This document shows, one piece after another, positions 1 to 31,834 of a stretch of 31,834 nt of DNA. The notes below the pieces were generated by a model that saw only the letters and a program-made list of their open reading frames with translations, searched no databases and was not told where the DNA came from. A program made the translations under genes and the position numbers. Numbering within the stretch: position 1 is the first letter of the stretch; every line of letters starts with the position of its first letter. This stretch comes from a virus. The stretch is taken from positions 1-31,834 of IMG/VR virus record IMGVR_UViG_3300020187_000123; one strand, 5' to 3'.

Positions 1-642
1 ATTGGCCTGCCAAAATGGATCGTTTCTAGCGTATGTCCATGCAGCCGCTATAGTTTCGTAGTCTCTTCCATCAATCTCACGAATCTTTCTTATGGTGTCG
101 GCCCATTGATTTAAGTTTGGCTTTTTAAATCTGGGGTCTTGTACTAGTAATGACTGATACATACGCTCAACAAAATCTAAGTCTTTACCATCGAACTTCA
201 GCTTTGCTGACGTTTTAGTTTTTATATATGGTTTTTTATATGGGTTTTTATATGGTATAGGTTGCTCAGATTTGGGAAATGCATTGCTCATATTTGGGAA
301 ATCCATTTCGCATTTCTGGGAAATGAGTATTGGTGCGGCTTTGGAGCTAAATTCTGGCATTGAATACCATTTAGTTCGATCATATCCAGCCTTGTTATGG
401 TTGCCAGTAATGAGTGCGCCAGCCGACTCTAATTCTTTTAAAAGTCGGCTTATTTTCTTTGCATTTAGGTAAGGCCAGATTTCAGCCAAGGCCGAAGCAG
501 AGTTAAACGTCCAGAAATAATCATCAATATTATTGTGATTGTTGGCTTTATTTTTAGTCAGCCAAAAGCGTAAGTTATTGAGCATCACAGCCTTTTCAAC
601 TCCGTATATAACCGCTTCTTGAACGTCAAAATGATGATCCAT
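1..642 (-). CDS. Phage replication initiator (O-like), left copy, cut at window start
   Basis: Replication initiator of the lambda-O kind, expected to bind the origin iterons that lie inside this gene and recruit the helicase loader. The 214 visible codons start at ATG 642 (AGGT upstream) and run off the window at base 1. The N-terminus has the look of phage winged-helix initiators: AVMLNNxRFWL, then SRLLKELE, then the DRTKWYS signature near residue 90. The C-terminal part is supplied by 31085-30891 if the genome is circular. It aligns without indels to the full copy at 30891-31727: the last 42 codons are identical at DNA level, the rest differ at about 33 of 214 residues. It lies downstream of the cro and ribbon-helix-helix-like genes, as O follows cII in lambda. 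Family assignment is by motif recognition only. Confidence 0.8.
   Translation of the reverse strand, partial: MDHHFDVQEAVIYGVEKAVMLNNLRFWLTKNKANNHNNIDDYFWTFNSASALAEIWPYLNAKKISRLLKELESAGALITGNHNKAGYDRTKWYSMPEFSSKAAPILISQKCEMDFPNMSNAFPKSEQPIPYKNPYKKPYIKTKTSAKLKFDGKDLDFVERMYQSLLVQDPRFKKPNLNQWADTIRKIREIDGRDYETIAAAWTYARNDPFWQAN
219..327. other. Putative lambda-type replication origin inside the initiator gene (left copy)
   Basis: Three direct repeats with an exact 22-bp period start at 262, 284 and 306. The best is TTGCTCATATTTGGGAAAT at 284; the first matches it at 18 of 19 positions and the third at 15 of 19. Beside them, at 219, 232 and 245, are three AT-rich repeats with a 13-bp period of the form T5-6(AT)2-3GG. 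Neither 22 nor 13 is a multiple of 3, so these are DNA repeats, not protein repeats. Iterons next to an AT-rich unwinding element inside the O gene is the arrangement of ori-lambda; the inference is that replication starts here. Confidence 0.72.
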
Positions 643-662
643 ATATGACCTATATAATCTAT

Positions 663-857
663 TTATTCTATTTCTTGATTCGGTAAAAGGTCTTGGAATA
701 ACCTAATTTCAGCAAAACGCTTTTTACGAATTTCAAGAAAGGTGACTCTAATGTACGCAGACATTTCAAGGCCCATAAGCTCAGAATCACGTTTAGCAAA
801 TAGGTATAGATCATCATCGAAAGTGCTGGTAACAGTGTTTGATAATTTATCGCTCAT
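663..857 (-). CDS. Small ribbon-helix-helix-like protein at the cII position
   Basis: A 64-residue protein of unknown function. The segment with the pattern LYLFAKRDSELMGLEMSAYIR resembles the helix-turn-helix of ribbon-helix-helix repressors, followed by a charged helix (RKKRF). ATG 857 overlaps the cro stop as ATGA, and the initiator gene follows 20 bp after its stop. This is the place of cII in lambda, so a regulatory role in the lysis-lysogeny choice is possible but only inferred from position. A diverged second copy of its 3' end is at 31756-31834. Confidence 0.6.
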   Translation of the reverse strand: MSDKLSNTVTSTFDDDLYLFAKRDSELMGLEMSAYIRVTFLEIRKKRFAEIRLFQDLLPNQEIE

Positions 858-1063
858 GCAGTCGTCCTTAACTGTCCAATTGGAACTTTTTGATAGTGAG
901 CCGAGTCATACTCAAGTTCACCAGAAGTTAACAGATGAAGCTCAGTTGCCCTGCCCTTTGGAATTACATCACCCCATTGGGAAACGGCGGCTTGCTTAAT
1001 GTTTAATTCAAATGCCAATCGGGTTTGTGATCCGAAGTATTTAATGGCTGTTTCTCTTAGCAA
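854..1063 (-). CDS. cro: P22-type Cro repressor
   Basis: DNA-binding Cro protein of the P22_Cro/YdaS kind, expected to bind the operators between itself and the repressor gene and shut down the repressor promoter. The helix-turn-helix reads FGSQTRLAFELNIKQAAVSQWG, followed by the family-typical VIPKGRA and a TSGELEYD tail (69 residues). I chose TTG at 1063: GGAG lies at 1074-1071 with 7-nt spacing, and the FG pair then falls at residues 10-11 as in P22 Cro. The ATG at 1081 would add six residues but sits only about 7 nt from the predicted transcription start and has no ribosome site. First gene of the leftward operon; its stop overlaps the next start. Confidence 0.85.
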   Translation of the reverse strand: MLRETAIKYFGSQTRLAFELNIKQAAVSQWGDVIPKGRATELHLLTSGELEYDSAHYQKVPIGQLRTTA

Positions 1064-1082
1064 TGTGATACTCCATGTCATA

Positions 1083-1178: not shown

Positions 1179-1793
1179 ATGGAAAGCATAGGTAGCAGAA
1201 TCAAAGCAGCACGAAAAGCTAAGAGAATGACGCAAAAAGAATTGTCTGATTCAGCAGATGTAAGCGCGACCTCAATTGTTTATTGGGAGCGTGATGAAAT
1301 AGAACCTAAGAGCAAAAACTTGGCTTCCTTGGCGAGAGCTTTGGAATGTGCGCCAGACTACTTAATGTATGGTGCGACTTTTGGTGAGGAAGTTTCTATC
1401 CCACAATTTCACTCAAGAGTCCCTTTAATAAAGTGGGATAATGCAGGAGAAGTGCCAATGCAGGGAGATGCAGACTGGATATATTGTCCAGTTCAATGCG
1501 GCAAAAACACTTTTGCTTTAACAGTTCAAAGTGACTCAATGGTATCTACGAGTACAAGCTCAAAGAGTTATCCATTAGGAACTGTGATCTTCATTGACCC
1601 AGATGTTAAGGCTGTCAATGGTGCAAAGGTAATTGCTAAAAAGTCAAAAACAAAGGAGGCAACATTTAAGCAGTACATCATAGATGGTGGTGAAATCTAT
1701 CTAAAGCCATTAAACCCACAATACCCCACTTTACTGGTTGATCACGACACAGTTATTGTTGGCAGTATTATTGGGTCTTTTCAACCAGAGTAA
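1179..1793 (+). CDS. CI-type repressor with S24/LexA self-cleavage domain
   Basis: Prophage repressor that maintains lysogeny and is inactivated by RecA-stimulated self-cleavage. Residues 5-60 form an HTH_XRE domain (RIKAARKAKRMTQKELS then SATSIVYWERD). Residues 80-204 are a peptidase S24 domain: the Ala89-Gly90 cleavage bond (WDNAGE), the nucleophile Ser120 in QSDSM, and the general-base Lys164 in EATFKQ are all present, so it should be SOS-inducible. Length (204) is normal for the family. AGAGG precedes ATG 1179 by 6 nt. It is divergent from cro across a 115-bp operator region and on the same strand as the recombination/integration operon, from which it is separated by a terminator. Confidence 0.92.
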   Translation: MESIGSRIKAARKAKRMTQKELSDSADVSATSIVYWERDEIEPKSKNLASLARALECAPDYLMYGATFGEEVSIPQFHSRVPLIKWDNAGEVPMQGDADWIYCPVQCGKNTFALTVQSDSMVSTSTSSKSYPLGTVIFIDPDVKAVNGAKVIAKKSKTKEATFKQYIIDGGEIYLKPLNPQYPTLLVDHDTVIVGSIIGSFQPE

Positions 1794-2737: not shown

Positions 2738-2889
2738 ATGTTGATATTTATTTAGAGGCGTTAAGCGACTTTCACAAATTGTGGATATATCAAAACCCAT
2801 ATTGTGAAAAGTTAAATTTTGAAAAGCATTTAGCCTACAAGGAAGCAGCTTTAAAAATAGTAGATGAAATAAAAAGAGGTGACGCATGA
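2734..2889 (+). CDS. Small hypothetical protein upstream of the annealing protein
   Basis: A 51-residue protein from ATG 2734, preferred over the in-frame ATG at 2692 because GGGGATAG lies upstream and the start is coupled to a preceding stop. It is probably all helical (HKLWIYQ, HLAYKEAALKIVDEIKRG). No family recognised. Stop and next start overlap as ATGA (2886-2889), so it is co-translated with the recombinase. Confidence 0.6.
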   Translation: MNVDIYLEALSDFHKLWIYQNPYCEKLNFEKHLAYKEAALKIVDEIKRGDA

Positions 2890-3566
2890 ACACTTTAGAT
2901 ATGTTGAAGGTTCCGTTTTTGCCAAGGGATATAGAGTGGCGCGTGTGTCGCTCTGGCGTTTCTAAAGCTGGTGCGCCTTGGGTAATGGCTTTGGCTTACA
3001 TCGACAATAGGGCAATCATGGATCGGCTAGATAACACTGTCGGCCCACAAAACTGGCGAAATGAGTACACCCAAGCCCCATGTGGTGGAATCTTATGTGG
3101 CCTGTCAATAAAGATAGGTGGTGAATGGATTACCAAGTGGGATGGTGCAGATAATACAGATGTTGAAGCCATAAAAGGTGGCCTGAGTGGTTCGATGAAA
3201 AGAGCCGCAGTTCAGTGGGGTGTCGGAAGGTATCTTTATGGATTGACTGAAAACTTTGCAACAGTTATCCAAGGCAAGCAAGAAGGTAGCCACTCATCAA
3301 AAGTTAAAGGTGTTGATGGTTACGTCAACTGGCTTGCTCCTACACTGCCAGATTGGGCGCAACCAAGTAAGCAGCGCATCAACAAAGAACAAATGCAATC
3401 GACTCTAATGGCCTTGCTTGAAGCCATAACCAACCAAGACTCATCATTAGCAATAGAAGTGATGGGTGAGCTAACTGAAAAAGAGCAGATATACCTTTGG
3501 AACATGACAAGCAGTAAGCAAAAAGCAGCAATTCATTCATTAACTTATCAAGAAGAGGCAGCGTAA
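2886..3566 (+). CDS. Sak/Rad52-type single-strand annealing protein
   Basis: Recombinase that anneals complementary single strands and promotes phage recombination, working with the SSB encoded next. Residues about 10-125 match the Rad52/22 (Sak) fold: R-x-IMDRLDNTVGPQNWRNEY, the GGxxCGLSIKI-GEWITKWDGA strand pair, then the strongly conserved GSMKRAAVQWGVGRYLY near residues 98-114. The C-terminal 80 residues are variable and helical. Length 226 is usual. No exonuclease gene is adjacent, which is common for Sak phages. The stop overlaps the SSB ATG by one base. Confidence 0.9.
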   Translation: MNTLDMLKVPFLPRDIEWRVCRSGVSKAGAPWVMALAYIDNRAIMDRLDNTVGPQNWRNEYTQAPCGGILCGLSIKIGGEWITKWDGADNTDVEAIKGGLSGSMKRAAVQWGVGRYLYGLTENFATVIQGKQEGSHSSKVKGVDGYVNWLAPTLPDWAQPSKQRINKEQMQSTLMALLEAITNQDSSLAIEVMGELTEKEQIYLWNMTSSKQKAAIHSLTYQEEAA

Positions 3567-4198: not shown

Positions 4199-4477
4199 AT
4201 GCTAGATCGAGTTTTAATAAGAAAGTTCTGCGAGCTATCTGGCTATGGCTATGATGGTATCTATAAAAAATGTCAAAATGGCGTGTTTAATGAAGGAAAG
4301 GAATTCTTTCGCGCACCAGATGGACGCTATCTAATAAGCATATCGGGGTTTGAGAAATGGTCAGAAAGTACGAAGGTGTCGAGTCCCGTTACTCGACCAC
4401 AATCGAGGTTACGTTCCAGTATCAGGGGCAACGCTGCCGCGAACCAATCAAGCTCAAGCCTACGCCCTCTAACCTAA
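4199..4477 (+). CDS. xis: Excisionase-like protein overlapping integrase
   Basis: Recombination directionality factor that would favour excision by the integrase encoded next. Residues 1-55 match phage excisionase/AlpA-like winged helix proteins: FCELSGYGYDGIYKKCQNGVF, then GKEFFRAPDGRYLISISGFEKW. The last 37 residues are low-complexity Ser/Arg-rich and are encoded in the 121 bp that overlap the integrase N-terminus in another frame, recalling the lambda xis-int overlap. Its start follows the preceding stop by three bases. Confidence 0.8.
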   Translation: MLDRVLIRKFCELSGYGYDGIYKKCQNGVFNEGKEFFRAPDGRYLISISGFEKWSESTKVSSPVTRPQSRLRSSIRGNAAANQSSSSLRPLT

Positions 4478-5562
4478 AGAAAGTATCTAATCACCGAGCA
4501 GCTATCCTCCATGAGATAGCTATAGGCACATTTGACTACGCCACTGTTTTTCCTGAGTCAAAGAACCTTCATAAGTTCGCAGACATAATTAAAGACATAA
4601 CCATTGAAGAAACATTAAAGAAATGGTTTAAAGTAAAATCCCCCCAGTGCCACGCCTCTACTGTCGATGGATATAGAAAGATCGTATTCAATCAGTTAAT
4701 ACCTGAGTTTGGTCACATCTCAATATATGATTTCCGCGCCTACCACATGAGAGATTGGATCATTAGCAGAACCAAGATGAGCAACAAGAGGATTAGGAAT
4801 GTTGTATCTCCTATGCGCTGCGCTTTAGCTCTTGCAGTAGGTGATGAGATCATAGATAAAAACCCTCTCCATTTGTTTATCTATGCAAGGGCTGAGACTC
4901 ACGCCCAGATAAAAGCAAAAACCAAAAAGCTAGACCCATTTAACCTAGAAGAAATGAACCTGATTTTTGAGTCTGCTAAAGGTCAAGAGCGCAATCTGTT
5001 TAGAACTGCTTTTTGGACGGGAATGAGAACAAGCGAATTGTGTGCGTTGCTTTGGGAGGATATTGATTTCATTAACGGCACGATAAACGTAGATAAAGGT
5101 TTAACAATGGCGGCAGATGAGGCAGAACCGCCAAAGACTGTAGCGGGTGAAAGATTTATTAGAATGTTGCCTCAAGCTCGTATTGCTTTAATGGCTCAAA
5201 AAGAACACACATTCCTTGAAGGTAACGAGGTTTTTCATGATTCGCTTTACGGCAAGCCTTGGGCAGGAGATCAACCTATTCGACTTCGATGGAAAGCCAT
5301 ATTGAAAAAAGCAGGATTGCGCTATCGCAGGCCGTACCAAACGAGACACACATACGCTTCTATGATGTTGACCTCTGGCGAGTTGCTTGGCTGGTTCAGT
5401 CGCCAGCTTGGTCATAAAAATATAAATGTAACCACGACAATCTATGCCCAATGGATAGAAACAGAAGGCCATGATGGGGGCAGCTTGATTGATGCTAAAT
5501 TTGGGGACGCGGGTTCGATTTCCAAAATAGGAACTGAACGCAAAAAGTTGATTAAAAAGTGA
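4357..5562 (+). CDS. int: Tyrosine-family integrase
   Basis: Site-specific recombinase for integration at attP, which lies immediately downstream. It has an N-terminal arm-binding domain (about 1-65), a core-binding SAM-like domain (about 80-175) and a catalytic domain (190-380). Catalytic residues: Arg224 (WTGMRTSEL), Lys260 (PPKT), Arg330 in YQTRHT, where Tyr327 replaces the usual His of HxxR, His353 (LGHK) and nucleophile Tyr363 (TTTIYAQW). Length 401 is normal. The first 121 bp overlap xis. Its N-domain is expected to bind the TGCCACTTT arm repeats around 5590-5793. Confidence 0.95.
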   Translation: MVRKYEGVESRYSTTIEVTFQYQGQRCREPIKLKPTPSNLKKVSNHRAAILHEIAIGTFDYATVFPESKNLHKFADIIKDITIEETLKKWFKVKSPQCHASTVDGYRKIVFNQLIPEFGHISIYDFRAYHMRDWIISRTKMSNKRIRNVVSPMRCALALAVGDEIIDKNPLHLFIYARAETHAQIKAKTKKLDPFNLEEMNLIFESAKGQERNLFRTAFWTGMRTSELCALLWEDIDFINGTINVDKGLTMAADEAEPPKTVAGERFIRMLPQARIALMAQKEHTFLEGNEVFHDSLYGKPWAGDQPIRLRWKAILKKAGLRYRRPYQTRHTYASMMLTSGELLGWFSRQLGHKNINVTTTIYAQWIETEGHDGGSLIDAKFGDAGSISKIGTERKKLIKK

Positions 5563-24998: not shown

Positions 24999-26362
24999 GG
25001 ATTACCCACAAGGGCGAGGTTAGGCTCACTGAATTCACCAAGAGTTCTAGCGGCATCAATTTCTATGGTTGCTTGGGCTAAATCATCATCACTCAATACA
25101 AGTTCTGCAATGGCCTTATCAACGCCCTTATTAAATCTAGGGCTGTTAACGCCAGAAGCCTTGGCTCGTTGTAAAAACTCAAGCTCGGTTCCGTAATCGC
25201 GCAGATCAAACGTATCAGGATAATCAATCGTGATCTCTGAGGTGACGCCTTGCCACATAGCAAACAAATGCCATAATTGTTCCTCTGCCAACTCTAATAG
25301 ATCAGCCTTTTCAGACAGTTTGGCATTAAGTAATTGGAACTCAGTTTGCAATGCCACGCCTGACTTAGTTTGAGCATCTGTGGCCCTCACTGCGCCCATG
25401 TGAGTCATTCGGTTAATGGATTCAACCTTGTCTGTAATGCTGGCTCTAATTGCATCCAAGTTGCCGCCACTGGGTTGGAGTAAATAAGGCTGAATAGAGT
25501 CGGTATCTGAGACTTCAATGACGCTGCCTGCGCCTGCCCCTGCATCTGTATCAACTGACTTCACTAGGCTAGGATGGTTGCTGATACGAATTAACTGCTC
25601 GATCTCAGATAGCTCGTTGTATATTGCCCTTTGCATATACGCAACATCGGTTATATCAGAGTGTCCGATTCCGCGAATAGGTGAGCGATTGCCGTATAAA
25701 CAAACGGCTGGAATCACGCCTAATGGGTTATCCATAGTCTCAACTAGCTTGGCCTCTTCACCAATCACCTCATAGCCTTTGATGGTGTCCTTTTCCCAAA
25801 TTCGATAGAAAGCATCCTCATCTTCTACCCACTCGCGCACCTTGAGCATGGTTAACTCATAACGCCCATTTAAGGCTCTTTCATAACGCCAATCTAAGAC
25901 GTTCTCAGGCGTGATCAAAGTGAGGTAAGGTCTAACCTCTTGGGCCAATTCATCGGCTCTTGTGTTAGCAATGACGGCAGGCTTATCCATGATCAACCAC
26001 ACATGACCATAAACGCCTGACCACATCTGGGCCTCACTCATGAACGCGTTAAGGCTGCGACCATCCATATCAGCATCTTTAAGAAATGAATTAAGGGCTT
26101 GATCTTCTACCAAGTTTCCGAAGTTTCTTGTGGGAGGTAAACGCCAGATAAACGATGAGTAAATGTTAATGACATTCTTGCAATGGTTATCTAGTGGAGT
26201 GAGATCAATCCGCTTTTGATATTCATGCTTATCTTCTAGTATATATTTAAGTAGGTAATTACCATCTCGATAGTCATTGCCGCCCATGTAGGAACGCAAA
26301 AAGAACTCCCACTTTGGAGCGTTCAAATTATATACGTCATGCGTTTTTGTGATGCTGTCCAT
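24995..26362 (-). CDS. Portal protein
   Basis: A 455-residue portal, the dodecameric ring for packaging and head-tail joining. ATG 26362 is preferred (AGGTGG six bases upstream, TAATG overlap with terL). Features: NVINIYSSFIWRLPP, NVLDWRYERALNGRY, GVIPAVCLYGNRSPIRGIGHSDI, QRAIYNELSEIEQLIRISN and KSGVALQTEFQLLNAKLSEKADLLE clip/crown helices, resembling DUF4055-type siphophage portals. Synteny terL-portal-MuF-scaffold-capsid agrees. Confidence 0.88.
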   Translation of the reverse strand: MDSITKTHDVYNLNAPKWEFFLRSYMGGNDYRDGNYLLKYILEDKHEYQKRIDLTPLDNHCKNVINIYSSFIWRLPPTRNFGNLVEDQALNSFLKDADMDGRSLNAFMSEAQMWSGVYGHVWLIMDKPAVIANTRADELAQEVRPYLTLITPENVLDWRYERALNGRYELTMLKVREWVEDEDAFYRIWEKDTIKGYEVIGEEAKLVETMDNPLGVIPAVCLYGNRSPIRGIGHSDITDVAYMQRAIYNELSEIEQLIRISNHPSLVKSVDTDAGAGAGSVIEVSDTDSIQPYLLQPSGGNLDAIRASITDKVESINRMTHMGAVRATDAQTKSGVALQTEFQLLNAKLSEKADLLELAEEQLWHLFAMWQGVTSEITIDYPDTFDLRDYGTELEFLQRAKASGVNSPRFNKGVDKAIAELVLSDDDLAQATIEIDAARTLGEFSEPNLALVGNP

Positions 26363-27579
26363 TATGTCCACCTAGTTGGCTGTCTTTGTGTGCTTTCTTT
26401 ACGCACCGGAAATAGATAATCCACACAATAACCAAGAGCGTCATTCATGTGATCGAACCCCGAATCTTTATCAGGCTGAGAAGTTCCTTCTTTGTAAGTG
26501 TGCCTCTCTAAGCCTCTAATAACGTGTTTGCATTTTGGATCAATAATCAAATGTCGATCACCTGATTTAGTCTTTAGCCTGCTATTGACTGCGTTTATTC
26601 TGTCTCTAATTGGTGTATGTGCTGGCCTGACTTTGACTGTAAAGCCTGCGTTTTCTAGGATAGATAAATCAGTCTTGCCGCCTGCGCTTGTCTTGCGTTG
26701 CCTAGCTGCTGGATCAGGGTAAATAGTAATCGGTCTATTCGGGTATCTGTGGTAAATCTCATCTGCCATTTCATCTGTATTTGATCCATGTATGACAATC
26801 TCATCTACTGCATAAAGGTCATTCTTATCTCTAATAAACACCACGGCTGACATTGGGTTAATGTTAAAGTCGACTCCTATGTGAAGCGGCATGAGCGAGT
26901 GCGCTTCTGATTTCTTCACTGATTTCTCGCGCTCAAAGTTGTAATAAATAATGCCTGAGTAGTTAACAAATTGGGCTAGATATTCTTGATTAAAGGTGCG
27001 CTCATCTAAGTCACGCTTTGCCGATTCAATTTCTTTTTCTGGGACGTTACCCCCATCCAAAGTAGTGAACTGAAAGCTATTCCATTCCTCACGCCCGTCT
27101 ACCCCATCAGTCCAAAGGTCATAGAAGTGATTGCGGCCTTTGGGTGATCCAATGAATAAAGCAGAACCGCCTTTGTCAGATAGTGTGGGTCTTAATACCT
27201 CAGTCCATGCCGTATTCTTCATGTCAGCAAACTCATCAAGCACGATAAAGTTAAGACCAACACCTCGCAAAGAGTCTGGATTGTCAGCCCCCTTTAACGA
27301 GATCATAGAGCCATTAAGCAGCCTTATTGATAGCTCACTCTCGTTACGCTTGTCGATGTATTCCAAGGGTAAGAACTCTTTTAGTAATTCCCAAGCAATC
27401 TGCTTTGCGGCTTTATATGTCGGGGCCACATACCAACAGTGTCGCTTGTTATCTATCAAGGCTTGGCGCACTAACTCAACAATAGCCAAATGAGTCTTTC
27501 CAAAGCGTCTGCCTGCGACCATGACTCTGAAACGGGTATCATCACGAAATACTTCGCTTTGTGGTTTACTCAGCCGCAT
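26362..27579 (-). CDS. terL: Terminase large subunit
   Basis: Packaging ATPase-nuclease of about 405 residues from ATG 27579 (an upstream TTG would add five). Counting from that TTG: Walker A AGRRFGKT (27-34), Walker B FIVLDE (116-121) and motif III FIGSPKGRNHF; the RNase H-like nuclease has Asp242 (VDFNINP), Asp294 (YPDPA) and the HMNDALGY acidic end at about 382-389. Overlaps terS by 14 bp. Cuts and pumps concatemeric DNA through the portal. Confidence 0.95.
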   Translation of the reverse strand: MRLSKPQSEVFRDDTRFRVMVAGRRFGKTHLAIVELVRQALIDNKRHCWYVAPTYKAAKQIAWELLKEFLPLEYIDKRNESELSIRLLNGSMISLKGADNPDSLRGVGLNFIVLDEFADMKNTAWTEVLRPTLSDKGGSALFIGSPKGRNHFYDLWTDGVDGREEWNSFQFTTLDGGNVPEKEIESAKRDLDERTFNQEYLAQFVNYSGIIYYNFEREKSVKKSEAHSLMPLHIGVDFNINPMSAVVFIRDKNDLYAVDEIVIHGSNTDEMADEIYHRYPNRPITIYPDPAARQRKTSAGGKTDLSILENAGFTVKVRPAHTPIRDRINAVNSRLKTKSGDRHLIIDPKCKHVIRGLERHTYKEGTSQPDKDSGFDHMNDALGYCVDYLFPVRKESTQRQPTRWT

Positions 27580-27907
27580 ACAACTCAATTTCAATCGGGG
27601 GAAGCTGAGTGATTGCTGTTTCTAGCTTATCCGTCTGGCCTAGCCAGTTCTTACCCAACCAAACCAACATCGTAGGATTGCCCTCCATAGCGGTAGTATA
27701 TTGGGTGCGCCTCAAGCTCATCTTGCCATTACTGGCCTTTTGCTTAAAATAGTCCGAAAAAGCGAGATGTTTTTCACGTTTACAAGCAGTTGCTAGGGTG
27801 TCGTAATCACAGCCTAATACTCCTGCAATCTCTTCACCTGTACACTGAATTGCACATAACTCATCCACTTGATCCCAATTCACATCAAATAGCGGTCTAC
27901 CTGTCAT
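27566..27907 (-). CDS. terS: Terminase small subunit
   Basis: A 113-residue DNA-recognition subunit. N-terminal helix-turn-helix: VDELCAIQCTGEEIAGVLGCDYDTLATACK; C-terminal GNPTMLVWLGKNWLGQTDK is a hallmark of this terS family. Coupled to the upstream gene by ATGA and overlapping terL. It should recognise the phage packaging site, which I could not identify. Confidence 0.88.
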   Translation of the reverse strand: MTGRPLFDVNWDQVDELCAIQCTGEEIAGVLGCDYDTLATACKREKHLAFSDYFKQKASNGKMSLRRTQYTTAMEGNPTMLVWLGKNWLGQTDKLETAITQLPPIEIELYAAE

Positions 27908-30273: not shown

Positions 30274-30545
30274 AAGAAATCCAAATCCAAGGCGACACTC
30301 ATATAGCCTTTGCTCATGTTCCAGCGTCTATGCTCACTTAATAAAAGCCGTTCTGTTTTCAAACTTCGCTGCTTTTCAAATGGCGTTTGATGCCCAAGCT
30401 CTCGATGGTGACGCAATAGATTTACTTCGTTATCAATGGCTGTCTGTCTATTCTTTTCACTTAACCGCCTAGAGCCTGCCAAAATGCTTGAAACAACGGC
30501 TTTCTCTAAAACTTGAGTCTTAACGCTTTCTTCACCTATGATCAT
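30270..30545 (-). CDS. Hypothetical protein after the helicase loader
   Basis: A 91-residue, basic, helical protein with an Arg/His-rich centre (NLLRHHRELGHQTPFEKQR, LLLSEHRRWN). ATG 30545 overlaps the upstream stop as ATGA. Not recognised. Position directly behind the P-like gene suggests an early function, perhaps nucleic-acid binding given its basic character. Confidence 0.62.
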   Translation of the reverse strand: MIIGEESVKTQVLEKAVVSSILAGSRRLSEKNRQTAIDNEVNLLRHHRELGHQTPFEKQRSLKTERLLLSEHRRWNMSKGYMSVALDLDFL

Positions 30546-31000
30546 TTAAAAAGTCCTTTTAATGCTTCTGCTTGTTGTGTTCCGTATTCGCGTTCTTCAT
30601 TGGTCTGTTGTTTGGTAATTAATAACGGCCTGCTGTCTGATTGTCTGGCTTGTTGATTAGCAATCATGTTTTGCTCCTCACCGCCTCTGGCCCTGCCTAA
30701 ACACATATTCCGAAAGTCTGTGGCTGTTGGAGGCCACGATTCTGTCCAATCTTTCAATGCGTCAATGCCAGCTTTAAACTGATTGCCGTTTAAGTCCTTA
30801 AGAAAGGAAGTCCAACTGCCGTTATCAGAAAAGTCATGGCTGCTAGTCCACTTGTGACCAAACAGATCAGTCATAACTTCCCATAAGCGGTCAATTAATC
30901 GCTCGTTCAGTTCTGTCGCGCTGTGCCTGTCGTTCTGCGTTTGCTGCCCTGACCCTTGCAGGGGCCGAGTTATTAACTGGCTGATTGTTTTGGCCTGCAT
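30542..31000 (-). CDS. Lambda P-like replicative helicase loader
   Basis: A 152-residue protein that would deliver host DnaB helicase to the origin complex. ATG 31000 has GGAGGT five bases upstream, so it is preferred over ATG 31012. Family signature: LIDRLWEVMTDLFGHKWTSSHDFSDNGSWTSFL then ALKDWTESWPPTATDFRNMCLG, as in phage P proteins. Its first 110 bp overlap the initiator C-terminus in another frame. Confidence 0.8.
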   Translation of the reverse strand: MQAKTISQLITRPLQGSGQQTQNDRHSATELNERLIDRLWEVMTDLFGHKWTSSHDFSDNGSWTSFLKDLNGNQFKAGIDALKDWTESWPPTATDFRNMCLGRARGGEEQNMIANQQARQSDSRPLLITKQQTNEEREYGTQQAEALKGLFK

Positions 31001-31727
31001 ACTGACCTCCATTTGATTTATTTTTGTTAATTGATAAGAAATAAAGTTTCTGAAATTGCTTTCTTAGGCTTAAAGCAGATAAGCAATTGGCCTGCCAAAA
31101 TGGATCGTTTCTAGCGTATGTCCATGCAGCCGCTATAGTTTCGTAGTCTCTTCCATCAATCTCACGAATCTTTCTTATGGTGTCGGCCCATTGATTTAAG
31201 TTTGGCTTTTTGAATTTAGAGTCTTGGGCTGTTAAAGATTGATACATACGATCAGCAAAATCTAAATCAAGATCATTAAAATTCAGCTTTGCTGTAGTTT
31301 TAGTTTTTATATATGGTTTTTTATCTGGTTTTATATCTGGTATAGGTTGCTCATATTTGGGTAATCCATTGCTCATATTTGGGTTATCCATTGCCCATTT
31401 TTGGGAAATGAGTATTGGCGCGGCTTTGACGCTAAATTCTGGCATGGAGTACCATTTAGTTCGGTCATATCCAGCCTTGTTGTAATTGCCTGTAATGAGT
31501 GCGCCAGACACTTCTAATTCTTTTAAAAGTCGGCTTATTTTCTTTGCATTTAGATAGGGCCAGATTTCAGCCAAGGCGGTAGCAGAGTTAAACGTCCAAT
31601 AGTAATCATCAATATTTTGATGGTTGTTAGCCCTATTTTTAGTCAACCAAAAACGGAAGTTATTGAGCATCACAGCCTTTTCAACTCCGTATATAACCGC
31701 TTCATCAACATCAAAATGATGTTCCAT
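30891..31727 (-). CDS. Phage replication initiator (O-like), complete right copy
   Basis: A complete 278-residue initiator with TAGGTG before ATG 31727. N-terminal winged helix with AVMLNNFRFWL and SRLLKELE, the DRTKWYSMPEF signature near residues 89-99, a conserved centre WADTIRKIREIDGRDYETIAAAWTYARNDPFWQ, and an Arg/Gln-rich C-terminus. It equals the left copy at the shared 3' part and is about 84-85 percent identical over the N-terminal 214 residues without any gaps. Contains the second iteron set at 31304-31412. Confidence 0.85.
   Translation of the reverse strand: MEHHFDVDEAVIYGVEKAVMLNNFRFWLTKNRANNHQNIDDYYWTFNSATALAEIWPYLNAKKISRLLKELEVSGALITGNYNKAGYDRTKWYSMPEFSVKAAPILISQKWAMDNPNMSNGLPKYEQPIPDIKPDKKPYIKTKTTAKLNFNDLDLDFADRMYQSLTAQDSKFKKPNLNQWADTIRKIREIDGRDYETIAAAWTYARNDPFWQANCLSALSLRKQFQKLYFLSINKNKSNGGQYAGQNNQPVNNSAPARVRAANAERQAQRDRTERAIN
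31304..31412. other. Putative lambda-type replication origin (right copy)
   Basis: Iterons with 22-bp period start at 31347, 31369 and 31391 (TTGCTCATATTTGGGTAAT, the same with GGGTTAT, and TTGCCCATTTTTGGGAAAT), preceded by AT-rich repeats near 31304, 31317 and 31330. Same layout as 219-327 at the expected offset of 31085, but the iteron bases differ in parallel with the diverged initiator. Confidence 0.72.
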
Positions 31728-31755
31728 ATCGCACCTAAAATTTATTAATTTTTAT

Positions 31756-31834
31756 CTATTTATTAATTTTCTTGATCGGCATTAGGTCTTGAAATACGCT
31801 CAGTTCACTGAATCGTTTCTTACGTTCTCTATCA
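31756..31834 (-). CDS. Second copy of the ribbon-helix-helix-like gene, 5' end cut
   Basis: Twenty-five codons before TAG 31756, homologous to the C-terminus of the gene at 663-857: RKKRFSELSVFQDLMP against RKKRFAEIRLFQDLLP, but with a different last few residues and an 8-bp longer spacer to the initiator. The 5' part lies beyond the window. Confirms that the terminal duplication extends beyond the initiator gene. Confidence 0.7.
   Translation of the reverse strand, partial: DRERKKRFSELSVFQDLMPIKKINK

Follow-up and report, generated by a model that had tools for sequence, protein, structure and literature searches.

In phage lambda, the replication origin lies inside the initiator gene O, where inverted-repeat iterons bound by O dimers are followed by a 40-bp AT-rich region (PMC5043065; PMC7466680). 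In plasmid pSK41, the origin is located centrally in the rep gene, and the linker encoded there is dispensable (PMC5703833). Both origins are intragenic, and the principle is thus already known. A chimeric initiator has also been described from the staphylococcal plasmid pPR9, in which the N-terminal domain and the origin were swapped and the C-terminal part was kept (PMC5703833).

Here we analyze a phage locus that shares features with both systems. Judged by its sequence, positions 214-327 (31298-31412 in a second allele) very probably constitute a lambda-like phage replication origin within the gene of the protein that recognizes it. As in ori-lambda, the element is placed within the initiator gene between the DNA-binding and the C-terminal domain, its iterons are imperfect palindromes with an A-rich centre, and an AT-rich block lies on the 3' side. 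The C-terminal domain is homologous to that of lambda O, and O and P are adjacent downstream of cro, as in lambda, with a weak match for P. In contrast, the N-terminal domain has no detectable sequence relation to lambda O and the iteron sequence differs. The strict 22-bp spacing is a further difference, because the annotated lambda iterons start at 39034, 39054, 39078 and 39101 and are thus 20, 24 and 23 bp apart. A conserved box, CCTATACCAGATA, and 12-bp repeats are present here and absent from the AT-rich tract of lambda.

The best fold match of the N-terminal domain is to the RepA_N initiators (pSK41, pTZ2162) and to PLE RepA. By description, the iterons of RepA_N initiators likewise lie in the rep gene and are semi-palindromic around an A tract (PMC5703833, PMC7145576). 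Unlike pSK41, whose C-terminal domain is DnaD-like, the protein studied here has a lambda-O-type C-terminal domain and belongs to a phage replicon with a P-like loader. An exchange of N-terminal domain and putative origin, resembling that in pPR9, is found between the alleles described here and those of related contigs (L017-L021); in contrast to pPR9, the module that is kept consists of the O tail and the P-like gene. In the open-licence literature, we found no description of an intragenic array in this initiator family. Its fixed, family-wide architecture with the box, and the covariation reported below, appear to be undescribed.

Results

The contig carries two alleles of an O-like initiator gene

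A virus record of 31,834 bp forms the window, that is the whole stretch of DNA analyzed. Its first 728 bp and last 739 bp (1-728 versus 31086-31824) are 86% identical, and the initial 126 bp match exactly. A related contig (L039) runs unbroken from the homologue of window 3150-1 into those of 30652-30097 and 29768-28605, and the ends of the window are therefore joined in nature. These data suggest a genome of about 31.1 kb, circular or permuted, and a contig that was probably assembled from two strains. Because the contig wraps round this genome, it contains two initiator alleles, A at its start and B at its end. A true duplication of the O gene within one genome was also considered as the source of the two copies and judged less likely.

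The gene order cI (+), cro, a small ORF (x), O and P-like, with NinB further downstream, is that of lambda. Coordinates are collected in Table 1. The P-like gene as called overlaps the 3' end of O, and its real start may be internal. The O-like protein (P0002) matches the 'replication initiation' families PHROG 11233, 2514 and 4880 (E 2e-28, 9e-23 and 2e-19), whose descriptions give the function name only and mention neither an origin nor iterons. These matches, together with the lambda O homology of the C-terminal domain, bear out the preliminary description of this DNA, which had placed the repeats in an O-like gene. When genome contigs were scanned for relatives, one (L022) matched in the N-terminal part and another (L023) in the C-terminal part. 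A DNA search of annotated phages with window 1-900 gave no match. GC skew has a turning point near the array, but also where transcription switches direction. Since its turning points coincide with changes in gene direction, the skew does not discriminate for an origin.

Table 1. Features of the replication region in the window
Feature	Position	Strand	Basis or remark
O-like initiator gene, allele A, 5' 214 codons, cut by window edge	1..642	-	winged-helix domain ~358-642
A-rich 12-bp repeats CCATATAAAAAC, CCATATAAAAAA, CCATATATAAAA; putative unwinding element, allele A	214..255	-	period, codon choice, stability
Near-invariant box CCTATACCA (PIP codons), allele A	253..261	-	homologue alignment
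Iteron 1, allele A, adjoins AT block	262..283	-	repeat scan
Iteron 2, allele A	284..305	-	repeat scan; 91% identical
Iteron 3, allele A, farthest from AT block	306..327	-	repeat scan; 68% identical
64-aa ORF between cro and O, in cII position	663..857	-	position only; family search without match
Cro-like regulator (P22_Cro)	854..1081	-	family match
CI-like repressor (HTH + S24 peptidase)	1179..1793	+	family matches
P-like helicase loader gene	30542..31012	-	PHROG 109 'P-like helicase loader', E 8e-5 (weak); co-travel with O tail
O-like gene, allele B, complete, 278 aa	30891..31727	-	winged helix at 5' end; lambda-O-type C-terminal domain, residues 154-254
CCTATACCA box and 12-bp AT-rich block, allele B	31298..31346	-	homologue alignment, stability
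Iteron 1, allele B	31347..31368	-	repeat scan
Iteron 2, allele B	31369..31390	-	repeat scan
Iteron 3, allele B	31391..31412	-	repeat scan

Iterons with a strict 22-bp spacing are read in three frames

Three repeats at 262, 284 and 306 had been noted in the preliminary description. The repeat scan confirmed them, with spacings of 22 and 22 bp, and a period of 22 scored best among all periods from 15 to 30 in the gene. None of 1000 synonymous-codon shuffles reached the observed 22-bp score in either allele. An 18-bp iteron core was searched with up to 3 mismatches and occurs five times in the whole window (0.09 expected), every time in one of the two gene copies. The array is present in both alleles, and the arm sequences differ between them. 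Because 22 leaves a remainder of one when divided by three, each of the three copies falls in a different reading frame. The peptides that they encode in allele A differ accordingly (ISQKCEM, DFPNMSN and FPKSEQP). DnaA boxes (TTWTNCACA) match three times in the window, which is fewer than expected by chance, and none lies near either copy of the array.

The preliminary description had further reported AT-rich repeats at 219, 232 and 245 with a 13-bp spacing. Their location was correct, but the register was not: TATATGG recurs at 225, 237 and 249, thus every 12 bp and in frame, and the minus strand encodes PYKN-PYKK-PYIK. The argument that periods which are not multiples of three point to selection on the DNA consequently holds for the 22-bp repeats and fails for the AT-rich ones.

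The array is conserved in phase among homologues

A search of homologous initiator genes for the 22-bp periodicity had been proposed as a check. The discovery set comprised the best 80 of 419 IMG/VR relatives together with annotated phages, and was reduced to 70 by linker identity; L009, L010 and L012, for which the match start gave a short upstream frame, were placed by motif. Self-similarity of the linker in these 70 non-redundant homologues exceeded the synonymous-codon null in aggregate at 22 bp (Z 21.9), 44 bp (18.5), 12 bp (14.1) and 24 bp (9.7), and was weak at 13 bp (3.4); these Z-scores, like the shuffle and permutation figures in this study, overstate independence because the sequences are related. 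Individually, 50 of the 70 genes had significant 22-bp repeats against the synonymous null at 0.05, and 40 at 0.01. Most of the roughly 20 others contain degenerate copies that are visible in register. Loss of the repeats in genes that keep the protein had been named as a finding that would refute the origin. Most genes keep them, but in a few members, for example L028/L029 and L111, an array is not clearly recognizable.

When the alignment was anchored on the PIP codons, the 22-mers fell in register in nearly all genes. The consensus of the repeat consists of a spacer AATGGAT, an arm, an A-rich centre and a second arm. Spacer and box are kept, and the sequence of the half-sites is phage-specific. 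Each repeat is an imperfect palindrome, in which positions 7-11 covary with positions 16-20 (tested by shuffles between genes). In the three copies nearest to the AT block, the z values of this covariation were 8.9, 11.2 and 10.1, and all three share one position of the axis. Since these copies sit in three reading frames, coding cannot easily yield such a dyad.

As a hold-out, IMG/VR was searched with a DNA pattern of 20 fixed bases (ATGGA-N16-AACCTATACCAGATA), and no criterion was set on the protein. This yielded 79 new sites, 63 of which pass the strict motif of the N-terminal domain upstream and in frame. A variant of the YDRTxWY motif is visible in 15 of the remaining 16, and in the last case the contig starts only 17 codons upstream. 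The pattern matched this family only. In 36 hold-out genes unlike the discovery set, neighbouring repeats had an identity of 0.67 at 22 bp, versus 0.18-0.38 at other spacings from 12 to 33. This identity was scored over positions not fixed by the pattern, and the synonymous null was 0.51 with a maximum of 0.55 in 200 draws. The dyad recurred in the hold-out with z values of 7.3, 6.7 and 5.4.

The N-terminal ~95 residues of the family are conserved in phages annotated from Vibrio, Psychrobacter, Burkholderia, Bacteroides, Flavobacterium and Lactobacillus, and the C-terminal parts vary widely between members. The same N-terminal domain was also found in plasmid-like records from lactobacilli, Bacillus, Geobacillus and Burkholderia. 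Among these plasmid-like sequences (L204-L208), the one from Geobacillus (L208) has similar repeats at 22-23 bp and the others have only degenerate ones; the spacing there may be looser.

A near-invariant box is followed by an A-rich block

In the family, the arrays end exactly at the near-invariant box AACCTATACCAGATA, which is followed by A-rich 12-bp repeats. Codon choice within the box is almost fixed: among 61 homologues, ATA and CCA were used in all and CCT in 57. In the box-bearing genes overall, ATA accounts for 37% of the Ile codons, and CCA and CCT for 45% and 33% of the Pro codons. The 12-bp repeats keep the reading frame, and the peptide that they encode repeats the unit P/T-D-x-x. 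Because of this in-frame period, evidence for a DNA-level constraint on the block rests on its codon choice. In the 36 nt after the box, codons ending in A prevail over those ending in T (ATA 81%, ATT 17%; CCA 91%, CCT 9%; ACA 79%, ACT 17%). AT-richness alone fails to explain this choice, since A-ending codons are preferred even over T-ending ones. In both alleles, no 40-bp stretch of the gene is less stable than the AT block, which ranks 57 of 31,795 across the window.

We regard it as possible, without favouring the idea, that the box and the 12-bp A-rich repeats are themselves a sequence-specific origin element, acting as a single-strand or junction signal. Its reader would be common to all these phages and might be a host factor, a conserved surface of the initiator, the helicase or the helicase loader; the iterons would meanwhile drift along with the recognition helix. 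If true, this would define a new class of two-module intragenic origins, in which the 'opening' half stays fixed and the 'address' half changes fast.

The repeats covary with the predicted recognition helix

An AlphaFold2 model of the protein shows a winged helix in the N-terminal part, where the pLDDT exceeds 90 in most blocks. On this model, helix 61-74 was assigned as the putative recognition helix. The linker is predicted to be disordered, with a pLDDT below 60 over residues 101-150, exactly where the iterons and the AT block are encoded. We compared the similarity of the repeats, corrected for identity in the rest of the domain, with 8-residue windows of the protein in 66 genes. The correlation peaks at residues 60-67, the start of helix 61-74 (r 0.29-0.34; permutation p 0.001, uncorrected for 87 windows). 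In none of the test variants did the peak shift by more than one or two residues, and it survived thinning to 49 and 38 genes. No such peak was seen with two control segments, for which window 60-67 ranked 44 of 87 (AT block) and 12 of 87 (downstream coding DNA). Certain helix types pair with certain arms: NAKKISR occurs with TTTCCCAAATATGAGCAA, SSNKIQK with CAGCCAAACGGCTGA, and xxQIRN often with TTGCCC..GGGCAA. The covariation lends support to recognition of the site by the product of its own gene, as had been proposed.

The N-terminal part gave no BLASTP match to lambda O, an hhalign probability of 0.1% and no Pfam O match. Together with the different iteron sequence, this agrees with the earlier suggestion of a recognition system distinct from that of lambda. 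The top four fold matches were 4pql (Z 9.8), 4pt7 (9.6), 5kbj (with DNA, 9.1) and 4pta (8.7), at 2.9-3.5 A over 90-92 residues. We take these four to be RepA_N proteins; their PDB titles say only 'initiator' or 'Rep-DNA complex'. A sequence-profile search against PDB chains found no relative. Homology to RepA_N is a lead only, because the Foldseek E-value is weak (0.016 at best) and the RepA_N Pfam family PF06970 does not appear among the families listed for 51 members (25 of 28, E up to 0.1). A Pfam match to 'CTD1' (E 0.004) was below its cut-off and was disregarded.

DNA-binding domain and loader are exchanged separately

The C-terminal domain is 33% identical to lambda O over 101 aa (BLASTP, E 1e-13). 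Five related contigs (L017-L021) share the last 43 residues of O with the window and have a P-like gene that is 87-90% identical. Their N-terminal domain is a different one and is encoded together with 21-bp repeats, which are in frame and include the palindrome CACTAGGTAGTG (L017:1915-2691). The reverse combination was found in L037, L039 and L004, which carry an A-type N-terminal part with the array; their O tail differs, and their P-like gene is only 34-36% identical to 30542-31012. From these combinations it follows that the DNA-binding domain and the iterons are exchanged separately from the O tail and P. Such behaviour would be expected if domain and iterons form the address and O tail and P the helicase-loading part. 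The flanks of L037, L039 and L004 are about 90-95% identical, which indicates a polymorphism of the replication module among closely related phages. In L017-L021, the repeats are followed by CCTATCAATGAACCTATAAAAGAA, another AT-rich stretch with a 12-bp spacing; these contigs possibly represent a second family with an intragenic origin.

Discussion

The idea of a phage origin inside the initiator gene, put forward in the preliminary description, gains comparative support from the conserved 22-bp phasing and from dyads that covary in three frames. In the best reading of the data, the system combines a lambda-O-type C-terminal domain and a P-like loader with a DNA-binding domain whose sequence is unlike that of lambda O and whose fold comes closest to RepA_N plasmid initiators. 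Repeats, phasing, dyads, box, low duplex stability, covariation with the helix, homology to the lambda O C-terminal domain and joint travel of O tail and P are all features of the sequence, and from them we infer how dimer binding, bending, melting and loading might lead to origin activity. The N-terminal winged helix would bind each 22-bp iteron as a dimer, and the recognition helix would read the two 5-bp arms (positions 7-11 and 16-20) that flank the A-rich centre. With a rigid phasing of 22 bp, about two helical turns, the dimers would stack on one face, and the DNA would be wrapped or bent. The resulting strain could open the adjacent block of A-rich 12-bp repeats, beginning at the CCTATACCAGATA box. 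Finally, the lambda-O-type C-terminal domain would recruit the P-like protein, and the host helicase would be loaded.

Other roles of the repeats have to be weighed against this origin model. They might be operators only, bound by the protein in order to repress or roadblock its own early operon, while replication starts elsewhere. Initiators often autoregulate, and binding, which the covariation supports, does not alone establish origin function. However, the array lies more than 300 bp inside the gene and not at a promoter, and its core is found nowhere else in the window. It is also locked to the A-rich, least stable block, and the order of array, AT block and C-terminal domain matches that of ori-lambda and of the intragenic pSK41 origin (PMC5703833). 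We therefore consider a purely regulatory role improbable.

It is very hard to credit that the repeats reflect selection on the protein, as a repetitive flexible linker whose DNA-level likeness arose by tandem duplication. The in-frame 12-bp repeats with their P/T-D-x-x pattern and the predicted disorder of the linker would fit such an origin of the repeats. A spacing of 22 bp is not a multiple of three, however, and the peptides encoded by the three copies differ; moreover, the synonymous-codon nulls are exceeded, the arms covary in three frames and the codon choice in the box is near-invariant. We likewise give scarcely any weight to the array being bound by another factor, such as a host regulator, a phage repressor or a partition or packaging protein. 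The link between protein and site was drawn from sequence comparison, which leaves room for such a factor, but the repeats covary with the recognition helix of the gene's own product and not with other stretches of the domain.

With the array read as an origin, 22-bp phased palindromes ending at CCTATACCAGATA would provide a sequence rule for locating the probable origin in many uncultured phages more finely than skew methods allow. Because each gene carries both the reader and the site, the family offers protein-DNA specificities in natural pairs, and from these one could derive and test a recognition code for this winged helix. The locus is also an example of a single piece of DNA that is constrained in three reading frames by both coding and binding, and of an address module (DNA-binding domain and iterons) that is exchanged apart from a loader module (O tail and P).

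Outside the replication region, the window encodes a Rad52/22-type annealing protein (2886-3566) and a tyrosine integrase with an arm-binding domain (4357-5562); given these two genes, the phage is probably temperate. Unlike the lambdoid early region, the large terminase (26362-27594) has its closest matches, at about 54% identity, in Phage DSL-LC06 and Pelagibacter phages.
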